A stretch of DNA of 64,000 nt from Escallonia rubra (taxonomy: Eukaryota > Streptophyta > Magnoliopsida > Escalloniales > Escalloniaceae), in assembly GCA_033065855.1 (NCBI GenBank), contig JAVXUO010000086.1:496001-560000 (forward strand). The letters run 5' to 3'. Below, piece by piece: positions 15,848-36,731 of this stretch. The position numbers were made by a program, and so were the translations under genes. How positions within the stretch are numbered: position 1 is the first letter of the stretch; each line of letters starts with the position of its first letter. A model generated the notes under the pieces. That model was not told the origin of the DNA, ran no database searches, and was given only the letters and a program-made list of their open reading frames with translations.

Positions 15848-15849
<2 letters not shown>

Positions 15850-15925
<76 letters not shown>
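15850..15925. repeat. (TA)n microsatellite at the left edge of the large MULE
   Basis: About 38 TA dinucleotides directly abut the left terminus of the 9.8-kb element. The matching (TA)n on the right lies at 25,752-25,811. Confidence 0.95.
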
Positions 15926-15927
<2 letters not shown>

Positions 15928-16346
15928 AGCTGATCCGTTGAAAGCGCTAGCAAAATGCGCGATCTGGCCGTCCATCCTCAAAGGATGGATGGCCCAGATC
16001 TTTTTTTTCAAAAGCTGTCAGTCGTCTGCGACACTATGTCGCGGACAGTATTTTTTTCCATTTTGCCCCTCCTCCCATGTCCGCTACACTGTGCGGCGGA
16101 CGACTTTCTTGTCCTGACACGTGTCAGGAAAAAGACATCCGCTACATAGTGTAGCGGACTACTTTTCGACTGACAGATGTCAGGAAATGTCCCGTCAGTT
16201 CTTTACCCCCATGACGGTTACCTTGTCCTTATCTGTCACGTCAACAGTGTCCGCTACACAGTGTGGCGGACTGTTATTATTAAAACATTGTCCACGATAT
16301 AGTGAAGCGGACGTTATAAACTGTCCGCTGCATTATGTGGCGGACA
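15926..16346. repeat. Left terminal/subterminal region of the large MULE
   Basis: The terminal inverted repeat is followed by a hairpin-forming segment (GATCTGGCCGTCCATCC..GGATGGATGGCCCAGATC, 15,962-16,001). Six palindromes of the CCGCTACACAGTGTAGCGG family follow, starting at about 16,024, 16,080, 16,138, 16,249, 16,291 and 16,323. The order and spacing of the first ones mirror the right end. Confidence 0.85.
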
Positions 16347-16838
16347 GTTAATATATATTAAAAAAAACCCTAACTACGAAACTCTTATCTATTCTTTCTA
16401 CTCACAAATTTTCCCAATGGCGTTGGCAAGCAGATCTGTGCAATTTTTTCTTAAGAACACCTTTAATACCATAATAAATCACGTAAGTTCACAAAATCAA
16501 TCATTTACATGTTTGTAATCTATAGTTGTGATGAATATTGCGTTTTATGCGGACTTTTGATTATGCATTGAGCATGTGCTAGCGATGAGAATTTATATAC
16601 ATATATATGTATGTATTTGTTCATGTGGCATTTGTAAAATCCAATTCTGTGTATGTATATATATCTATTATACATATGAGTATATGCTAACATTGTATGT
16701 ATTATGCATGTGCTTGCGTTATATGTATTATGCATGTGCTTGCCTTATATGTATTATGCATGTGCTAGCGTCGTATTTTTGCGAGCGATTATCAAAATCC
16801 AAACTGAGAAGGTTTTTCCATAATTTCAGTTGCAAAAA

Positions 16839-19800
16839 ATGGAATTTAACCCTAGACCAGAAGATCCATCCGTGTTATACGACCAAGCCAACCATATCAG
16901 TACGCTCATATGGGATGGTGGAGTAAGATACTTAGCGAATAAACTTTCTTATTCCCGCAAATATTGTATACTTTTGCTTTGCTTAGATTGTATTTATTAA
17001 TTCGTAGGAAAGAGCACTTCTCAACACAGTAGAAGTATCCAATGAGTTCACAGCATGAAAATTGAACAAGTCCTAGAAAAGGATACTGCGTGGAATTGGG
17101 TTTGGGATTTTCACGCATGGGCAGATCTTTCAACACCTTGACCGGCACTTAATAGGTGCCCATTTTGAAAGGTGGAGAAGTGAAACGAATGCGTTTCACT
17201 TCCCTCTTGGAGAGATGACAATTACCCTAGAAGATGTAGGGTTCATCTTAGGGTTACCGGTGACAGGGCGGCCGGTAATAGCTCCTTCGTCGGAAGCAAC
17301 GAATAACAGAACCGCTAGGGACTTCTTCACTTCGATACCCCAGGAACAATTTAGCAGTGGTGGTATAAAGTTGAAGTGGTTGGTAGATACCTACAAGGTT
17401 TTTCCGGAAAACTGTACGGCCGAGATGCTTGTGCTGTACACACAAGCCTTCCTCTTGTGGGTGATGGGGGCAATTTTATTCCCAACGACGTCGAAGAACA
17501 CGGTCAGTGTGAAATATTTACCATTGTTGGGTAACCTGCGGGAGGTTGGGGATTATGCCTGGGGTGCAGCGGTTTTTTCGTATCTGTACCGAGCATTGCA
17601 CAAGGCAACGAGGCCCGACTCCAAAGCCATATGTGCATGTCTCTCGCTATTGCAGGTATATCATATAAATCCTAATTTTGTTATTGTTTTTTTTTTTGTT
17701 GAATTGACAATATAAATATAATTTCCCATGTTCTCAGGTGTGGTCTTATGAACACCTTGCTACCGGTGCACCAAAGCGTAGGGATGGAGCCGATAAAGTG
17801 TGGCCTCGGTTGTGTGCTTGGGAGTATAGCCGGAAGGACAGCCACTACCAGAGGAGAGTCGATCCCCATCACAACATTACGTACTCTCGAGGGGAGTTCG
17901 ACCGTCTATCTCCGGGCCAAATGCGTTAGGCACCTTACAGCCGTTTGGAGCGACGGGTGGGAGAGTTGTTCGACTTCCCGCTCTCTGGGTTGCAGCCCAC
18001 ACCCTTGATAAACTTTGAGTTCGCAGAGTGGCAGCTGCCAGACCGAGCAATGTGCCATTTTGAGTGCCTGTAGGGGTTTCTAGCCGATGCCTCAGATATG
18101 AGGGTTAACATGAACCCACCGGGTGTCGGCCGGTTTGGCAAGGCCAATGCGCACAAATTGTGCACGGCCGAAATAGAGCTTTGGAGTTCTTGGCAGGACA
18201 TACTGACGGCCATCGTCTCGGAGCCTGACCCCGTTATCAGCATCGAATAGTACACTGAGTGGTACTACCGCATCACGCGGAGGAGAGTAGCCCCAGTAAG
18301 GTTTGAACGCGAGGAGAAGTACCACCCTAGGGGTCAGATCGATGAGCATATGGCATACAATCTCGTAAGTTGTCCAACAAGTGTTCATAATTGAATTTGA
18401 TGATTATAAATGTCTGATTGAAGTTACTTATTTGTTATTTCTTTGGATGTAGGTTAATGCCTCCCTTGCATTCTTCCAGAAGTTGAGTGAGCAGAAGGAT
18501 CTGGTGAGCGCAATGGGCGAGGATCTTCGCCAATAGGTTGCTGCATTGGCTTTAGGCTGCGGGAATTTTTTGCGCCAGGCATCGGGACAATCTTCGGTCG
18601 TCAGCCCGGGAATGGGTTATACGGGCGTCAGCGATGGATACGGTGATCCCTCGGGACAAGCTTCAGGGGTGATCCAGGGAGTTGGTGGTCCCTCTATAGC
18701 AGGGATGTGACATGCTCAAGCGTCGTGGGACGATTGCAGTGTCCCCTCCTTTAATTTGTTTCCGGAACCCCAACCTCTCTCTCAGAGTCAAGTCGCGCAA
18801 GACTGGCCTTTTAGAAACTACGGTTTCTCTAAGGCACTGCCCATTGTCCCGTGGGCGGGACCACTTGGCACCCCCGGAAGGCAATATCCCCGGAGGGCAA
18901 TATCAGCCGGCGGAAAAAATGGCCGAAGAGCAATATCAGCCGGCCGAGCCCCCCGAAGGACATTACCAGCCGGCCGAACCTCCCGAAAGGCAATATCAAC
19001 CGGCCAGAACCAGGAATTGGAGGCCAATATCCCCTGCTCGAGCCCCCGGAGGACGAAAATATTTTCCGGTTGACCCACCCGAAGGAGGGCAATATCCCCC
19101 GGTCAACCCCCGAGGACAGTATTGCAAAGGGCATCCAGCCAGGCCCTTAAAGCCGCATAAATGCGAGCTAATCCGAGCCCGTTATTTTAGCAAGCCCTCC
19201 CGAGACAAAGCGTCGTATGACGTGGATCACCTGGAGGGCTTGGATTACAATTGCTCGTGGTCAGAAATGGCCTCGCTGGCTCCGGGAGCTTGGTTAGACA
19301 ACGGTGTCATCTCGCACTACGTGCATATTCTGAGGTAGAGGGGTCGGGAGCAGCCAGTCCACCGTCCGCACATTTTTATATCTTGGATGCTTATTTTCAT
19401 GGCATCCTAGTACAAGACTGGCACGAATAGGTCGCTGCAAGGGGGACAAGAACCCTGACCCAGTGGAAACCATCCGCTGACCTGCAGGCATATCCTGCTA
19501 GGGATAGTCCAATGAGCGCAAGTGTTGCCGACGTGTTTCTAATCCCATTTTTAGGGAATCACCACTGGTACTTGGTTTGCTATGAACCAGTAGAGAATGT
19601 CGTATCAGTTTTCGACAGTCTCCACGGTGATACCCCCGAGATGCCTGTGCTTCGTATATACAAAGGCCTAGGCCAGTTGGATGCCATGGTAAGATCCTGT
19701 TTAATTCTTATTGTAACTTGCATATTGTAAAACTGATTAATGTTTATTCTGTTTGCTATGTTTAATGTTTAATGCTTATTATGTTTCTCGCAGAATCTAT

Positions 19801-20105
19801 TTTCTGCGTTGGTCAATTCTTGGCGTGACGAGAGAATACTGGCCAGGCCAAAGCTTCATTTCCGATTGAAGAAGATGAGGCCCAAGCAACATAATTCCTC
19901 GGACTGCGGCGTCTTTGTCTGCATGTACATGGATTACATTTGTCGGTCTGAGAGCCTCGAAAAGACCATCTGGAGCCGAGAATGCATACAAGGCTTTAGG
20001 TATATGATAGCTTGGCAAATGATGAAAGGCCGGCCTAGAGCTATTAGGTTTACTGAAAATTCGTGTAATGACGAGAATCGCGCAGGAGATGAGGGCCCCA
20101 ATTGA
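16839..20105 (+). pseudogene. Plant mobile domain - ULP1 cysteine protease gene of the MULE, decayed
   Basis: Inferred exons: 16839-16922, 17008-17655, 17738-18364, 18453-19688, 19794-20105; junctions are GT..AG and in phase through exon 3. Exon 1 reads EDPSVLYDQANHISTLIWDG and exon 2 HFERWRSETNAFHFPLGEMT, ITLEDVGFILGLPVTGRPV, which is the plant mobile domain (PF10536). Exon 3 ends with YTEWYYRITRR. Exon 4 has a Gln/Pro/Glu repeat linker (QYQPAEPPEG-like) and the start of a C48 protease (PGAWLDNGVISHYV, HWYLVCYEP, VFDSL). Exon 5 has KQHNSSDCGVFVCMY with the Gln and catalytic Cys. His, Asp, Gln and Cys of the ULP1 site are all visible. At least nine in-frame stops (for example 17,056, 17,074, 17,927) and frameshifts near 18,870 and 19,378 inactivate it. 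The likely role of ULP1 proteins is SUMO/ubiquitin-like deconjugation; its role in transposition is unknown. Confidence 0.85.
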
Positions 20106-20485
20106 CATTGTAACATTATATTCATTTTTTTAATAAACATTTATTATCTTTATGAAAGTTGTTCTTCATTCATCAGGTTTGAATTGATTTATGTTGACAT
20201 CAGTTGATTGGTGTTGAATGCGATTGATTTGACTGACCGATTTGTGTTGAAATCAGTTGAGTGTTTGATTTGTGTTGAGATAGCATTGGCATTTTGGCTG
20301 ATTAGTGATTTGCTTTGAATGGTGGGAAACAAAGTGTGGGTAAGTGTTGGAGCTTTACGATTGCGCAGGGCCAAAAAAGTTCTAAGTGTTGGAGTCTTAG
20401 ATTGTAGTTGACATTTGATTTGGGTTTGAATTTACGAATGGTGGGAAACAAAATTGTGGGAAAGTTCTACAAAATATTTCTGCTG
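20106..20485. other. 3' flank of the PMD-ULP1 gene
   Basis: Contains repeated TTGATTTGTGTTGA-type segments (20,180-20,280) and a GGTGGGAAACAAA duplication (20,318 and 20,439). No gene seen. Confidence 0.5.
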
Positions 20486-21202
20486 CACCGTCCGCTACAC
20501 AGTGTAGACGACGTATAGGGAACAAAAAATTTCTAAGTGTTGGAGATCAAAGTTTCTGTTGCGCCGTCCGCTATATAGTGTAGCGGATGTATAGGGAACA
20601 AAAAAATTTTGAAGTGTTGGAGATGAAAGTTTTTGCTGTGCCGTTCGCTATACATTGTTGCGGACGTGTAGAGAACAAAAAGTTTTCTAAGTTTTGGGAT
20701 CCAGAGTTTCTGCTGCTCCGTCCGCTACACAGTGTAGCGGACGTATAGGGAACAAAAATTTTCTAAGTGTTGGAAATGAAAGTTTATGCTGCACCGTCGG
20801 CCACACAGTGTAGCAGACGTATAGGGAACAAAAAATTTTCTAAGTGTTAGAGATCAAAGTTTCTGCTGCGCCATCCGCTACACAGTGTAGCGAACGTGTA
20901 GAGAACAAAAAGTTTTCCAAGTGTTGGGATCCAGAGCTTCTGTTGCGCCGTCCGCTACACAGTGTAGCGGACGTGTAGAGAACAAAAAGTTTTCCAAGTA
21001 TTGGGATCCAGAGTTTCTGCTGCGCCGCCCGCTACACAGTGTAGCGGACGTACATGAAACAAAGTTTTTTTTAAGTGTTGGAGATCAGACTTTCTACTGC
21101 ACCGTCCGTTATACAGTGTAGCGGACGTACAGGAAATAAATTTTTTTAAGTGTTGGAGATCAGACGTTCTGCAGCGCCGTCCACTAGACATTGTAGCGGA
21201 CG
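20486..21202. repeat. Tandem array of a ~77 bp unit with a palindrome (10 copies)
   Basis: Ten palindromes of the form CCGCTACACAGTGTAGCGG spaced 75-78 bp apart from 20,490 to 21,201. Each is followed by GGGAACAAAAA, TTTTCTAAGTGTTGGAGATC and TTTCTGCTGCGCCGT. The array lies just downstream of the ULP1 stop and downstream of the B3 gene, so it separates the convergent genes. Confidence 0.95.
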
Positions 21203-21406
21203 TCGATAATTCTGGTTTATGAAATTGGCGAGGGAATAAATGTTTTAGCGGTGGAATCAACAATCTCAATATCTCAACTCAAATGTACGATTAACAATAA
21301 AAAATCATCGATTAACAATCACAATTCTCAAATGCACAATTAAGAACCTAAAATTCGAAAAAATAATGAACAGTAGCATAAAATTGTTCATAACTTGATT
21401 TCGGGT

Positions 21407-21977
21407 TCAACATTGGGGGAATGTTTTTTCACAAGTGCTCCGATCCAACACCGTCACTTGAAAATTCCAGTTCCCCGTGTGTTCAAAGATTAGAAAGTCC
21501 CCGAGATGGAGGTCATGATGCTGCACGAATTCGTTCGAACCCTCTGTGAAACAAATTTGATCTTGGCCGCGCTTATTCTTGATTCTAACATGCCATGACC
21601 CCTTGCGGCTGGTTAAAGTTGAATCGAAATAAAGTGTGGCACGTCTTGCGCAAAATGCTATCGGTATGTCCTAACATATTCATAATACAAAAAATAGGTA
21701 AGTTTTTAAGCAAAGATAAAACTTTTAACACACACGAAAACACAGAGAAAGAGGGATGGCCTACCATCTCTGTATCAAAACCAGGCATCATGACCTTGAA
21801 GAAGTGTCTGCCTACAAGGTGCATGTTGCCTACAAATTCACTGCTCGACGAATCAAAAGCCGTCAGGACGGATCTGTCACCGGAGGTGGCACCGCGTCGG
21901 GGGGAGGACGGAGATGTCGCTGGAGGTGCCGTGGCGTTGAGGGGAGGACGGGGTTGTCGCCGGAGGTGGCGCGGCAT
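21407..21977 (-). CDS. B3-domain protein carried by the MULE (two exons, open frame)
   Basis: Exon 1 ends at 21,765 and exon 2 spans 21,670-21,407, joined by a GT..AG intron in phase 0. Exon 1 includes GRHFFKVMMPGFDTEM and exon 2 starts DIPIAFCARRATLYF, then KGSWHVRIKNKRG, FVQHHDLHLGDFLIFEHTG and WNFQVTVLD. This is a complete plant B3 DNA-binding domain, nearest in style to REM proteins. The start may be ATG 21,824 (107 aa, almost only the domain) or the upstream in-frame ATG 21,977 (158 aa with a Pro/Ser-rich leader encoded by a GC-rich repeat); the shorter is more typical. There is no stop or frameshift, unlike the two larger genes of the element. It lies between the two palindrome arrays, codirectional with the transposase. 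It could be captured host DNA or a standing component of the element; it may bind the repeats, which is inference only. Confidence 0.75.
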
Positions 21978-22022
21978 TGGGCGGAGGACGGTGGTGTCGC
22001 CGTAGATGGGGTAGCGGCTGGG
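21876..22022. repeat. GC-rich ~45 bp minisatellite
   Basis: About three imperfect copies of a unit with GGCGGAGGACGG..GTCGCCGGAGGTGGC. It overlaps the possible extended N-terminus of the B3 gene, which argues for the downstream start. Confidence 0.75.
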
Positions 22023-22098
22023 TGAGATGTTCGAGATAGATAGAGAAACGGGAGAAAGAAGATTGGCCGATTTGATTAATATATAACATGAAAGAGTC

Positions 22099-22336
22099 GT
22101 CTGCTACATTGTGTAGCGGACACAAAGAACACCGAAATTTTTTTGGACTCTGCAGAGCCGTCCGCTACATTGTATAGCGGACATAAAAGAACACCAAAAG
22201 TTTTCTAAGTGTTGGAATTTTAAGACTCTGCAAAGCCGTCCGCTATACAGTATAGCAGACATAAAAGAACCAAAATTTTTCCAAATGTTGGAGTTTTAAA
22301 ACTCTGCGGAGCCATCTGCTACACTATGTAGCGGAC
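22099..22336. repeat. Second internal palindrome array (4 copies)
   Basis: Four palindromes of the same family at about 22,099, 22,160, 22,237 and 22,314, with a 60-77 bp spacing and the same AAAATTTTCTAAGTGTTGG linker as the main array. It lies upstream of the B3 gene and downstream of the transposase gene. Confidence 0.9.
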
Positions 22337-22474
22337 GGGGCAAATAAAAAAAAAACCTAAACTTAGATTTGACGGCTCTCATAGGTCCATCAGAAAAAAA
22401 TTCCAGTCTTCGATCGAAAGATTATTAGAAAACGATTACAAATGTCAAACATACTTGATGGCTTATACAAAAAA

Positions 22475-24746
22475 TTAAAGGTCCACTGCAGCTTGTTCTT
22501 CCTCATCTTCGGCGTCATCTTCTTCCTCATCTTGCAAACCCCCTAGACTTATCCCAAGTGCCTTGTAATGGTTCCGCTTGGCATGGTCGGTCATTTTGTT
22601 GCACAATGATCACCTTCTCAGCTTTTTAGGTTGAGTTGCCTGTTTAATAGAGCTCTTCATCCGCGCAGATCTCTTGCGGCCTTTCGTTTGCGATATAATT
22701 GGATCCAAAGGCCGGATATCATTGTCGTCTTCCTCCCCCTGCTCGTCATCTTCTGATCCCGTTGTAGGCTCGGTGTCAACCGCATTGCTGACTGAAGCTG
22801 CTTCCAACTGGTCGACGATGGGCTCTTGCTGCTGAGCTACCTCGAGGAGATGTTTATATCCGACCATTGTAGCAGCACCCTTTACGGACAAACGGGTGAA
22901 CATCGTCACCAGATGATTATACCGCAACGTCTCTGATTCTTCAAAGTCAGTATACGGGTGCTCCGAAAAGGCAATGGTACCATGCAACCTGTTTGCACCT
23001 TTCATCCACCGTGGCAAGACGTATTTATTGGGGATTGTCCTGATATTCTTCTGGGTGAAAAACCGCAGAATGTGTCTACACAGGATGCCATGGAACTCAA
23101 ACTTCTTGCAAACACATGTCACCGAGTCCGTCAATGTGTCGTGGCTCACCGTATAAATTCTGCGCAGCTTCTCAGGGACGAGGTCATTCACGAGCGAATA
23201 AACCTTGTACTCACGCGTAGACTTTTCTGCCACCTTGTTTATACTGTATCGTCTCGATTTTCAAAGCTCTACTTGGTATAGCATGAAGATCTCCTTCGTA
23301 TAAACTTTGGCACCGTTCAGCTCCAGCGGGGTCTCAAGAAACCTTATCATTTGTTTGTACGTGGTTGCAAAGTCTGCAGCCCTTTCTTTCACGAATAACG
23401 ACGCAACCGCTTTTTGTGCGGATGTGACGAAACTCTTCAAATTGGTAGTTGTACCCAGATAACTATCGAACGTGGCATTCATAGATTCACTCATGCCTGT
23501 CGTTTTCATGCCCGCAGAAAAATACCTCCTCGTGTAAATGCCAATCCATTGCTCTTTGAGCTCGTACAAGTGCTGGAGCCACTCGTTGTCTTGCAATGAG
23601 TAATCCTCAACAAGCTTTTCTCACCTCTCCTCAAATTCCTCAATCGTTAACGACTTGTTAACGCACTTGTCAAAATCCTGTTTAAAGTCTAGATACTTTG
23701 CATACACGTGATGCAGACGTTCAGGGTATTTGTTGCTTATGTGCTAAGTGCACAAGTTGTGTCGAGTGTCTGGAAAGATTGTAGCAATAGTCTTCTTCAT
23801 TGCCAAATCTTGATCGGTGATGATAACTTTGGGTGCTTTGAAGTTCATTGCTTCCAGCCACGCCCTAAACAACCATACAAAAGAACCCTCGCTCTCGTCC
23901 CTTAACAAGGCGAACCCGAACAGGATGGAGTGATAATGATGATTGACGCCCGTGAAAGGAGCGAATGACATCGAGTACTTGTTAGTACGGTATGTGGTGT
24001 CAAAAGTCACGACATCCCCAAAATGCTTATAAGCTAGCCTCGAACGACCGTCGACCCAAAAAATTATGCTAACTCGATGCTCGTCGTCAAGTTTATAATC
24101 GAAGGTAAACTGCGGGTCCTCCATCTGCATCCGCTTCAATAGGCTCATTGTGAATTGAGCATCATTGAGGTCATACGCGACTCGTCTTTGGGTTCGGACC
24201 GCGTTACGAACGTCTGTCGTGTTAAAGTTTAGATTCTAAATTCCTCCAGCCTATTCAGCAAGAACATTAATCGTGTCGATAGGTCCTAGCCGCGCATTAC
24301 TCATTGTCTGAATCAGGCTCCTTGCGAACTTACCCATCTTCTTGTGTTAATGCATCTAACTCACCTTAGAAGGGGTTACTAACGGGTGATTGTGTGCCAA
24401 TGATCCTGTTTGGGTTTATAGCTTACGAACATCTTGACCTGGCAATTCGTGCGCGCAAAGCAATCCCGTCTTCTACACGAATATCCTATTTCACCATCAC
24501 TGTCATCGTTGCCTACGCGTGTCTCATTTTGCACTGGGTGTCTTCCCCTATGACACTCGTATAAGCGAGAGCATATTTTTTTGTTATGTTGCTTATTCTT
24601 GTAGTCTTTATTCTAATGCCAAAACCAACCCTCAATTAATACGCTCGAAAATATTCTTCGGCTTCTTCCAATGTTTGAAATGTTCGTCCTAAATACGGAT
24701 CACTAGTATCTACGGGGGTGTTGGAGCTCGCCAAGAAATCAGACAT
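22475..24746 (-). pseudogene. FAR1/MURA-type MULE transposase, decayed
   Basis: From ATG 24,746: an N-terminal FAR1 DNA-binding domain (PYLGRTFQTLEEAEEYF, RVGFGIRIKTTR, then after a slip in an A-run near 24,577 LYECHRGRHPVQNETR and YSCRRRDC). Next comes a core with FWVDGRSRLAYKHFGDVV, FDTTYRTNKY, VIITDQDLAM and HNLCT, then MSESMNATFDSYL. A SWIM zinc finger follows (CVCKKFEFHGILCRHILRFF), then a basic tail with an acidic end (CNKMTDHAKRNHYKALG, EDEEE). It resembles FHY3/FAR1-related transposases and would cut and join element ends. In-frame stops at positions expected to be Trp (after HNLCT, after FEER, after VEL, after KLRR) and the frameshift make it inactive. From ~24,148 down to 22,475 the frame is constant apart from stops, so decay is recent. 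Confidence 0.9.
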
Positions 24747-25384
24747 TGTGAAACAAGACCTATGTAGAAATAGACTACGCTTAACTATCAAATGGCATTT
24801 CTAACTGAAAATATTACCTCAAAATTATCTTGGCAAATAGACCAATTTAGGATGACAAATATACCATATACATAATCTCAAAAGAGTATCCAATTTAACA
24901 TTTATTAATTTATTGAACATAACAAATTAAAATTACTAAGATAAATAGACAAATTCATCACGCCAAAATACAACAAACATATCATTTGAAATTCGAATTT
25001 AAATAGGATAAATTTTTTGGAGTTAGCGAACCTCAAAAAAATTGAATTTAATTATAATTAATTTATTTAAAGTTAACAAATTAATTTCTAGAACATCACA
25101 AATTGATTTCTAGAACATCACAAATTGATTTCTAGAACATCACAAAAAAACTATACTTTTTTGTCTATTGAATTTTTTTTTATACTTTATCAGTCAATCC
25201 ATAAAGAAAACTTCACCATTCACAAACTTACCTTGCTTGAGTGAAGCTTGAAGTAAGTGTTACTCGAAGCTTGAAGTAAGTGTTATTCGAAGCTTAAATG
25301 GAGCTGAAAATGGAAACAATTGAGTCTGAAGGAGAAGAAAATTGTGCTGAAAGAGCTGAAAATCTTTTGGGGATAGGCAATACT
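24747..25384. other. AT-rich 5' flank of the transposase with short direct repeats
   Basis: Probable promoter/leader of the transposase gene. Three tandem copies of a 22-bp unit (TTTCTAGAACATCACAAATTG) lie at about 25,085-25,147, and a 25-bp unit (GCTTGAAGTAAGTGTTA) is doubled at 25,246-25,293. Confidence 0.6.
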
Positions 25385-25746
25385 GTCCGCGATACTGTAT
25401 AGCGGACTACAATGGCGACAACTTTGACGTGTGCAGAAATGAAGGTACAAATATTAATGGAAGTGTGTCTGTCCCGTCAGTCAAAAAGTTGTCCGCTACA
25501 CAGTGTCGCAGACAGCTTTTTGACCGACGGTTGTCAAGATCAATCAGTCGTCCGCTACACAGTGTAGCGGACAAGGTAGGAGGGGCAGTATGGTAAAAAA
25601 TATCGTCCGCTACACTATGTAGCGGACGACTGATAGCTTTTGAAAAAAAAATGATCTGGGCCGTCCATCCTTTGAGGATGGGATGGACGGCCAGATCGCG
25701 CTAGCAAAATCTCCTATTTTGCTAGCGCTCTAAACGGATCAGCTCC

Positions 25747-25747
<1 letters not shown>
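25385..25747. repeat. Right terminal/subterminal region of the large MULE
   Basis: Four palindromes (about 25,385, 25,490, 25,549, 25,605), then the GGCCGTCCATCC hairpin segment, a short inverted GCTAGCAAAAT pair, and the terminal repeat ending in AGCTCCC. It is inverted relative to the left end. Confidence 0.88.
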
Positions 25748-25813
<66 letters not shown>

Positions 25814-36530: not shown

Positions 36531-36595
36531 TAGTACATGTATAAATATAGATACTAAACAATATAATGAGTTTCTTTTCATCTTATATATATCTT

Positions 36596-36731
36596 GAGAG
36601 CTCATCCGTTGCTAGCGCTAGCACTGTCCGCTACATAATGTAGTGGACGGTAAATTATCGTCCGCTACATTATGTAGCGGACGGCAAAACAGCGCTAGCA
36701 ACGTGCTAGCGCTAGCAATGGATCACGACCC
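36596..36731. mobile_element. 136 bp MITE related to the large MULE
   Basis: Flanked by a 9-bp duplication ATATATCTT (36,587-36,595 and 36,732-36,740). The ends are ~29-bp imperfect inverted repeats: left GAGCTCATCCGTTGCTAGCG, right read inward TCGTGATCCATTGCTAGCG. The interior is essentially two palindromes of the TCCGCTACATTATGTAGCGGA type. Terminal GATCCGTT, GCGCTAGCA and palindromes match the element at 15,926-25,747. Block A has the empty site. Confidence 0.9.

Follow-up and report, generated by a model that had tools for sequence, protein, structure and literature searches.

A REM-type B3 gene among arrays of a symmetric 23-bp site in a degraded multi-gene Mutator-like element of Escallonia rubra

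We analysed a 64,000-nucleotide stretch of the genome of Escallonia rubra (the window; contig JAVXUO010000086.1 of assembly GCA_033065855.1, positions 496,001 to 560,000), which carries at positions 15926-25747 a 9.8-kb Mutator-like element (MULE). The element comprises a PMD/ULP1-type gene (plant mobile domain, PMD, and ULP1 protease) on the forward strand and, on the reverse strand, a two-exon gene for a REM-type B3 protein and a FAR1/MULE/SWIM transposase gene. An initial annotation, made from the letters alone, had claimed that a single pair of inverted termini encloses these genes, and the termini, their inverted arms and the corresponding Pfam domains were indeed found. The features are, in window positions:

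15849-15925, no strand: left (AT)n microsatellite holding the element (from the sequence)
15926-16345, forward: left terminal inverted repeat and subterminal palindrome block (six palindromes, 16024-16345)
16840-20105, forward: PMD/ULP1-type gene, degraded here, start read by eye (from Pfam and the corresponding frames in the sister copies C1306, C339 and C1112)
20490-21201, no strand: palindrome array 2, ten 23-bp sites spaced 75-77 bp, 3′ of both the PMD/ULP1 and the B3 gene
21142-21400, no strand: approximate site of an extra block of about 1.4 kb (open reading frames p and m) in many sister copies, not found here
21407-21977, reverse: B3 gene, 158 amino acids, open (from the Pfam B3 match of the joined exons and splice sites across copies)
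22099-22336, no strand: palindrome array 3, four sites, between the 5′ side of B3 and the 3′ side of the transposase gene
22610-24612, reverse: FAR1/MULE/SWIM transposase gene, interrupted here (from Pfam and sister-copy frames)
25385-25627, no strand: palindrome block 4, four sites, upstream of the transposase gene and into the right end
25470-25747, reverse: right terminal inverted repeat (from its alignment to the left end)
25750-25811, no strand: right (AT)n microsatellite

The left terminus, GGAGCTGATCCG..., starts at 15926 and its inverted partner ends at 25747, with (AT)n adjoining both. The best ungapped match of the inverted arms covers 133 nt with 79% complementarity, and long terminal inverted repeats (TIRs) are present, about 270 nt of the right end aligning to the left end at 77% (L009). 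Any 9-bp target site duplication would be masked by the insertion in (AT)n. This insertion preference, which the initial annotation had left out, is general among the fetched loci: (AT)4 or longer lies within 30 bp outward of 25 of the 26 termini (the terminus in L089 and, in L009, the left one of the window are not counted), compared with a window background of 1.0%. Some copies lie tail to tail within one (AT)n tract (L014, L033 and L035).

The window copy is degraded: the frames of the PMD/ULP1 and transposase genes are interrupted, and that of B3 is open. The transposase gene consists of a SWIM part (22610-23260), a MULE part (23744-24235) and a FAR1-like part (24379-24612). Its MULE/MURA transposase domain (PF10551; 2.4e-28 in the window copy and 1.3e-34 in C1112) places the element among the MULEs, and the SWIM domain was detected at 9.3e-6. 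The transposase had been called FAR1-type; the FAR1 domain itself escaped detection by Pfam in the window copy's own broken frame and was found in C1112 (2.4e-13). Another copy, C339, retains an open stretch of 410 codons across the FAR1/MULE part. The PMD/ULP1-type gene shows a PMD exon (17077-17655; 5.9e-47), a repeat stretch (about 18890-19111) and ULP1 pieces (about 19431-19691 and 19797-20105; Peptidase_C48, 6.9e-6). The PMD and ULP1 parts probably form one gene, a view that rests on their order, strand and splice-like joins read by eye. In the ULP1 pieces, the His, Asp and Cys contexts expected of this protease appear as NHHWYLV, FDSLHGD and SSDCGVFVC in the window reading frames. The PMD exon also gives a weak match to DUF1985 (1.7e-4), below the cut-off of that profile and far below the PMD score, and DUF287 is absent among the Pfam matches of the window proteins.

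The B3 gene is composed of exon 1 (21765-21977) and exon 2 (21407-21670), separated by a GT-AG intron of 94 nt, and encodes 158 codons without interruption. Exon 2 alone matches the Pfam B3 domain (PF02362) at 2.4e-9 and the joined exons at 1.1e-9, over profile positions 1-99 of 101. Across copies, the GT donor is kept in 34 of 38 and the AG acceptor in 36 of 38. Both exons, projected on the window frame, are open in 18 of 38 copies, and 19 of 37 distinct exon-2 copies are intact. A protein search with the window B3 alone returned no match; a profile built from six B3 sequences retrieved at least 20 proteins, those listed being 34-51% identical to the window B3, among them REM8, REM9, REM15 and an Os01g0723500-like protein, and matched the structure 1yel (At1g16640) with an E-value of 8.7e-5. 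The element protein thus shares its domain with plant REM-type B3 proteins and differs from them in setting, those being annotated as ordinary genes or unnamed and this one being a transposon gene. No near-identical host B3 gene, the sign of capture for which the initial annotation had asked, occurs among the 20 proteins listed or the best 150 genome matches. Every genome B3 match that was read, from 30 loci as well as L087 and L088, belongs to a copy of this element or to a CACTA element with a fragment of it.

The initial annotation had also proposed to recover further copies by their termini and to look for B3 in them. From 29 terminus loci besides that of the window, we tested the 16 with an inside matching the transposase end, together with two chosen by MULE match. 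By tblastn, B3 is present in 13 of these 18 fetched intervals, and the B3 of C2414 lies just beyond its interval; counting C2414, 12 of the 16 copies chosen by termini carry B3. C1306 aligns to the whole window element (89-90%) and C339 to nearly the whole of it (88-91%, its right end being cut short in the fetched stretch). The fetched stretch of C1112 begins at element position 1077, aligns throughout at 83-86% (69% in the array) and includes an extra block. B3 is in place in all three. The copy L095, placed by the terminus, MULE and p matches of C163, has B3 with a frame break. In a crude join of coordinates, at least 19 of 40 terminus anchors have a B3 within 9 kb among the matches listed. 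The position of B3 between palindrome arrays, first noted in the window, holds in the sister copies as well, palindromes flanking B3 on both sides in 29 of 30 B3 loci (the window's included) and on one side only in L081. Gene order and recurrence in sister copies indicate that B3 is a standing component of the family. We reject a single recent capture in view of the sister copies with B3, the protein relatives at 34-51% identity among the matches listed and a second B3 type described below. Neither of the outcomes that the initial annotation had set against a B3 module was observed: most other copies examined carry B3, and the matches listed contain no host gene nearly identical to it.

The modules of the four-module element proposed initially are all present, but the window holds a reduced form of the family, whose two further small genes had not been noted. 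An extra block of about 1.4 kb between the array and B3 is present, whole or in part, in 20 of the 30 B3 loci and in others, which makes a five-gene element the fuller form of the family; C1306, C339 and the window copy were searched for the block without result. The block contains two divergent open reading frames, p (144 amino acids) and m (130 amino acids), which are 33% identical to each other (E 8.5e-14) and have no Pfam match above cut-off; in L039 they occupy L039:257-646 (reverse) and L039:1011-1442 (forward). Among the best 150 of 1352 candidates in the genome, p is 89-100% identical, with about 120 of the 150 lacking an internal stop (hand count), and a Quercus suber protein is among its relatives (50% identical). 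Frameshifts in p are rare (0.027 per substitution versus 0.138 in the p-m spacer), 9 of 21 compared copies are intact, and the ratio of nonsynonymous to synonymous variants (N/S) among shared variants, i.e., those in at least two copies, is 2.08.

The palindromes are instances of a 23-bp site of two-fold symmetry, GTCCGCTACA-CWG-TGTAGCGGAC. With up to seven mismatches, 24 near-copies lie within the element and two more in a small element at 36.6 kb, compared with one near-copy in three shuffled versions of the window (mononucleotide shuffling, one orientation scanned). All 24 fall in the four non-coding stretches: six in the left end, ten between the PMD/ULP1 and B3 genes, four between B3 and the transposase gene and four in the right end. 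Similarly, in C1112 none of the 17 sites lies inside the PMD/ULP1, m, p, B3 or transposase parts; some stop-to-stop frames do cross the arrays there, apparently by chance. Across the fetched loci we collected 581 distinct instances (up to seven mismatches; L087, L088 and sites less than 100 nt from locus ends left out), in which the half-site GTCCGCTACA is conserved in both halves and the flanks mostly are not. Agreement is 76-100% within the 23 bp, bar the three central bases, and mostly below 60% outside; the mismatch threshold itself favours conservation within the site but cannot explain so sharp an edge. The pattern GTCCGCTAYANNNTRTAGCGGAC, identical to its reverse complement, has 9,925 matches in the genome, and the control, reversed but not complemented, has none. 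The small element (36590-36730) is AT-flanked, has ends like GAGCTCATCCGTTGCTAGCGC and two palindromes, and is probably a miniature relative. Palindrome clusters elsewhere in the genome (for example C9:42838-45841 and C12:17068-18203), many centred on TTA or TAA, have no B3 or MULE among the matches listed and are perhaps further subfamilies.

A second type of B3, about half identical to that of the window, lies at the same distance from transposase matches. C2846 (L040) contains two tandem B3 genes of this type, differing at 41 of 267 positions, with palindromes beside each; one of them is 55% identical to the window B3 over the aligned part. A protein of Escallonia herrerae annotated as 'TF-B3' (P0005) is 42% identical to the window B3. 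It shares 82 of 97 aligned residues with a C2846 B3 (72% over 114 columns, where a gap of 17 residues resembles a missed small exon) and may be a transposon gene that was taken for a host one in annotation. A genome search with P0005 gave, among the best 150 of 1389 candidates, matches of 87-91% identity, all 150 with an open frame of 91-97 codons (we take a TAG counted inside these matches for the acceptor triplet that precedes exon 2). Ten second-type B3s lie 2246-2504 bp downstream of listed MULE matches on the same strand, nine of these MULE matches having open frames of 782-783 codons and one of 297, and eight pairs from the other B3 list, C2846 included, are spaced 2260-2458 bp from MULE matches. 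At least 18 of 150 are therefore linked, a lower bound because the lists hold the best-scoring matches, whereas chance alone would give about 0.04 such pairs (arithmetic for two lists of 150, 566 Mb, a 2-kb window and one strand). In C17, match coordinates alone give the order array, B3, array, transposase, end sites. Using 43 of the 150 p matches, p lies 1.7-2.2 kb from second-type B3s on the same strand (17 pairs) and 0.7-1.7 kb from first-type B3s on the opposite strand (11 pairs). Since C2846 joins its second-type B3 genes to a transposase 90% like that of the window, B3 modules seem to have been exchanged between element lineages.

Multi-gene MULEs are best exemplified for our purpose by the VANDAL elements of Arabidopsis, which encode the transposase VANA, VANB and the anti-silencing protein VANC (PMC5735166, PMC10398659; all comparisons with the literature here refer to excerpts of the cited papers). 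VANDALs and the family described here share a multi-gene constitution, non-coding tandem arrays of a short motif and a self-encoded protein that is less conserved than the transposase. They differ in that VANC is a DUF1985/DUF287 protein and our candidate a B3 protein, and in that the VANC21 motif has 9 bp in one orientation, compared with 23 bp and two-fold symmetry here. The original VANDALs are described as non-TIR elements in PMC6446971, a table of which also gives TIRs of 46-174 bp for the group; the TIRs here are long. Finally, anti-silencing has been demonstrated for VANC and is a putative function here.

We interpret the window element as a decayed member of an old MULE family that has several genes, inserts into (AT)n and carries a standing REM-type B3 gene, a candidate site-binding self-regulator; we give this reading a probability of about 0.5. 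The best-supported role for B3 is the one proposed in the initial annotation, in which the element would encode its own regulator or a factor binding its repeats. As a DNA-binding domain flanked by sites, B3 is the obvious candidate reader of the palindromes, although the PMD/ULP1 and FAR1 proteins are candidates as well; we infer, by analogy with VANC, that B3 may bind the site. The B3 protein, probably as a dimer, would bind the two-fold symmetric 23-bp site, which fills the non-coding regions of the element, including those upstream of the PMD/ULP1, B3 and transposase genes. Acting on many clustered sites, B3 might keep its own family transcribable or unsilenced, as VANC does on VANDAL motif arrays. 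Fast amino-acid change combined with preservation of the frame would fit a contest between host and element, but neutral drift of dead copies also contributes to this pattern. A stronger proposal, that a REM-type B3 was recruited as a permanent, fast-evolving self-regulator and represents an independent second anti-silencing strategy of the VANC type, with sites spread about 10,000-fold, is tentative and in our view has less than even odds.

The B3 frame is guarded, its amino-acid sequence hardly. Distinct frameshift indels per distinct substitution number 0.039 in exon 2 and 0.055 in exon 1, versus 0.203 in the intron and 0.301 in the 3′ flank (exon 2 versus intron plus 3′ flank, Fisher 2e-10). 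For the SWIM part of the transposase gene the figure is 0.033, versus 0.226 for the non-coding flank 3′ of it; B3 and the transposase gene are similarly poor in frameshifts. Divergence of B3 is 0.083 at 0-fold versus 0.113 at 4-fold sites. Positive selection was considered, as the exons first appeared to diverge faster than the intron, and is not claimed: transversions alone erase the difference for exon 2.

Several observations weigh against a B3 self-regulator. The share of frameshifts among indels, 10 of 15 in exon 2 versus 57 of 68 in non-coding sequence, does not differ significantly (Fisher 0.15), and the non-coding controls are AT-rich, which may by itself raise indels. The pooled ratio of nonsynonymous to synonymous polymorphism (pN/pS) over four copies is 0.92 for B3 exon 2 versus 0.28 for the MULE part (middle part 0.47, SWIM part 0.41, PMD 0.77 and ULP1 0.63 in the same copies), and in six deep pairs B3 reaches 0.91-1.74. 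Shared variants give an N/S of 2.39 for B3 (67:28, plus 8 stops; random expectation 3.9, transitions 2.0; 37 copies), versus 0.77 for PMD (23:30; 12 copies), 0.83 for MULE (5:6; 11 copies), 1.29 for the FAR1 part (22:17; 20 copies) and 1.43 for SWIM (67:47; 28 copies). Singleton and shared variants differ for PMD (P 0.0005), with no clear difference for B3 (P 0.08). B3 exon 2, intron and 3′ flank have similar transversion rates, and in the three deep comparisons made, simulated neutral stop counts are not significantly above those observed (P 0.12-0.25). Two readings fit: fast change of B3 under selection, or drift of most copies once their function was lost. Nor does B3 simply descend with the transposase: C2846 combines a second-type B3 with a transposase 90% identical in DNA to that of the window (L006), and B3 and SWIM distances over 26 copies correlate only weakly, with a Mantel r of 0.20 and 234 of 2000 permutations as high. 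No co-change of B3 protein and site is seen, as the site halves agree in all examined copies with at least five sites, C1112 deviating at one half-site position. No B3 was seen in four of the 16 copies tested from their termini; L042, L046 and L052 have no element sequence where B3 should lie, and L047 has a palindrome array only. The uniform second B3 type offers a better place to decide between selection and drift.

One alternative is that B3 is a mere passenger, a piece of a host gene taken up a single time and transported since in Pack-MULE style. Its near-neutral amino-acid change, the 18 of 37 exon-2 copies that are broken and the capture of the same B3 by a CACTA element would agree with this; the occurrence of two half-identical B3 types at equal distance from transposase matches, the open frame of the second type in all 150 matches considered, the conserved splice sites, the rare frameshifts and the lack of a near-identical host gene among the matches listed make it very improbable. 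The arrays may also be read by another protein. The PMD/ULP1 protein, rather than B3, could be the array-binding anti-silencing factor, an analogue of VANC or KIU, with B3 playing a different role: Arabidopsis VANC (DUF1985, DUF287) binds motif arrays, KIU forms carry ULP1, the PMD exon has its weak DUF1985 match, and the gene is better conserved than B3. Since that match is below cut-off and PMD far above it, and B3 is a dedicated DNA-binding domain flanked by the largest arrays, we regard this possibility as rather unlikely.

It is also unlikely that the 23-bp sites are binding sites of the transposase, subterminal repeats that spread inward, B3 being unrelated to them. Their presence at both element ends and in the gene-free small element at 36.6 kb, together with the DNA-binding nature of FAR1, would suit such a role, but the largest array of the window copy is central, away from the cleaved ends. 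Quite improbable, finally, is an action of the palindromes independent of the element proteins, as nucleic-acid structures (hairpins or small-RNA sources) or as sites of host factors. They are near-perfect inverted repeats in high copy, and one of the ten base pairs of the site shows a clear excess of paired changes (36 double changes, 30 of them complementary, versus 17 expected; all pairs, 109 both-side changes versus 79 expected). There is, however, no general compensatory change over the ten pairs, which favours a protein reader over base-pairing and leaves hairpin or RNA structure unsupported as their main meaning; in each half, positions two and ten are 97-100% constant, as is typical of a half-site read by a protein.

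Other MULEs share single traits with the family. KIU/Kaonashi and other ULP1-bearing MULEs also contain a ULP1 protease domain, but no B3 gene or palindrome array is mentioned in the excerpts of PMC13317346 and PMC2528002. MuTAnT/AutoMuTAnT elements of Medicago are Mutator-like, with a Jittery-type transposase, and insert nearly always in (TA)n; AutoMuTAnT has 4.9 kb and a single open reading frame, in contrast to 9.8 kb and three genes here (five in many copies), and the terminus GGAGCTGATCC differs from the MuTAnT mask GGGGTTTGCTAGAACA (PMC4486113). MUDR-type MULEs with antisense PMD resemble our element in combining a SWIM transposase with a PMD gene on the opposite strand; the term 'B3 domain' occurs 0 times in the available text of PMC6446971. 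Searches of open-licence literature, which leaves out most subscription papers, for MULE or transposase together with B3 yielded no description of such an element; the papers listed dealt with a Harbinger-derived rice gene and with pine genomes. MULE, ULP1, PMD and (TA)n targeting are known parts, and, to the extent of the searches made, the B3 gene as a lasting part is undescribed.

To our knowledge, few plant transposon-encoded factors besides VANC act on their own DNA arrays. As its copies are many, its second B3 type is uniform and its 23-bp site is defined, the family provides a testable case of the acquisition of a regulator by a transposon, and it allows the joint evolution of regulator and site to be tested. 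If B3 does bind the site, the genome would be seeded with about 10,000 potential transcription-factor sites, and host genes near them could come under transposon control.

The B3 exons of this MULE family have also been captured by a non-autonomous CACTA element, present at L087:2065-5673 and L088:4144-8185, with ends CACTACAAGAAA...TTGTAGTG and 3-bp duplications CAG and AAT. A B3 group of 67% identity had been considered a young subfamily of the MULE; this was rejected, as the two members read are these CACTA elements, and dozens of similar genome matches look like further CACTA copies. The CACTA B3 nests within the MULE B3 tree beside L053 (support 0.977).

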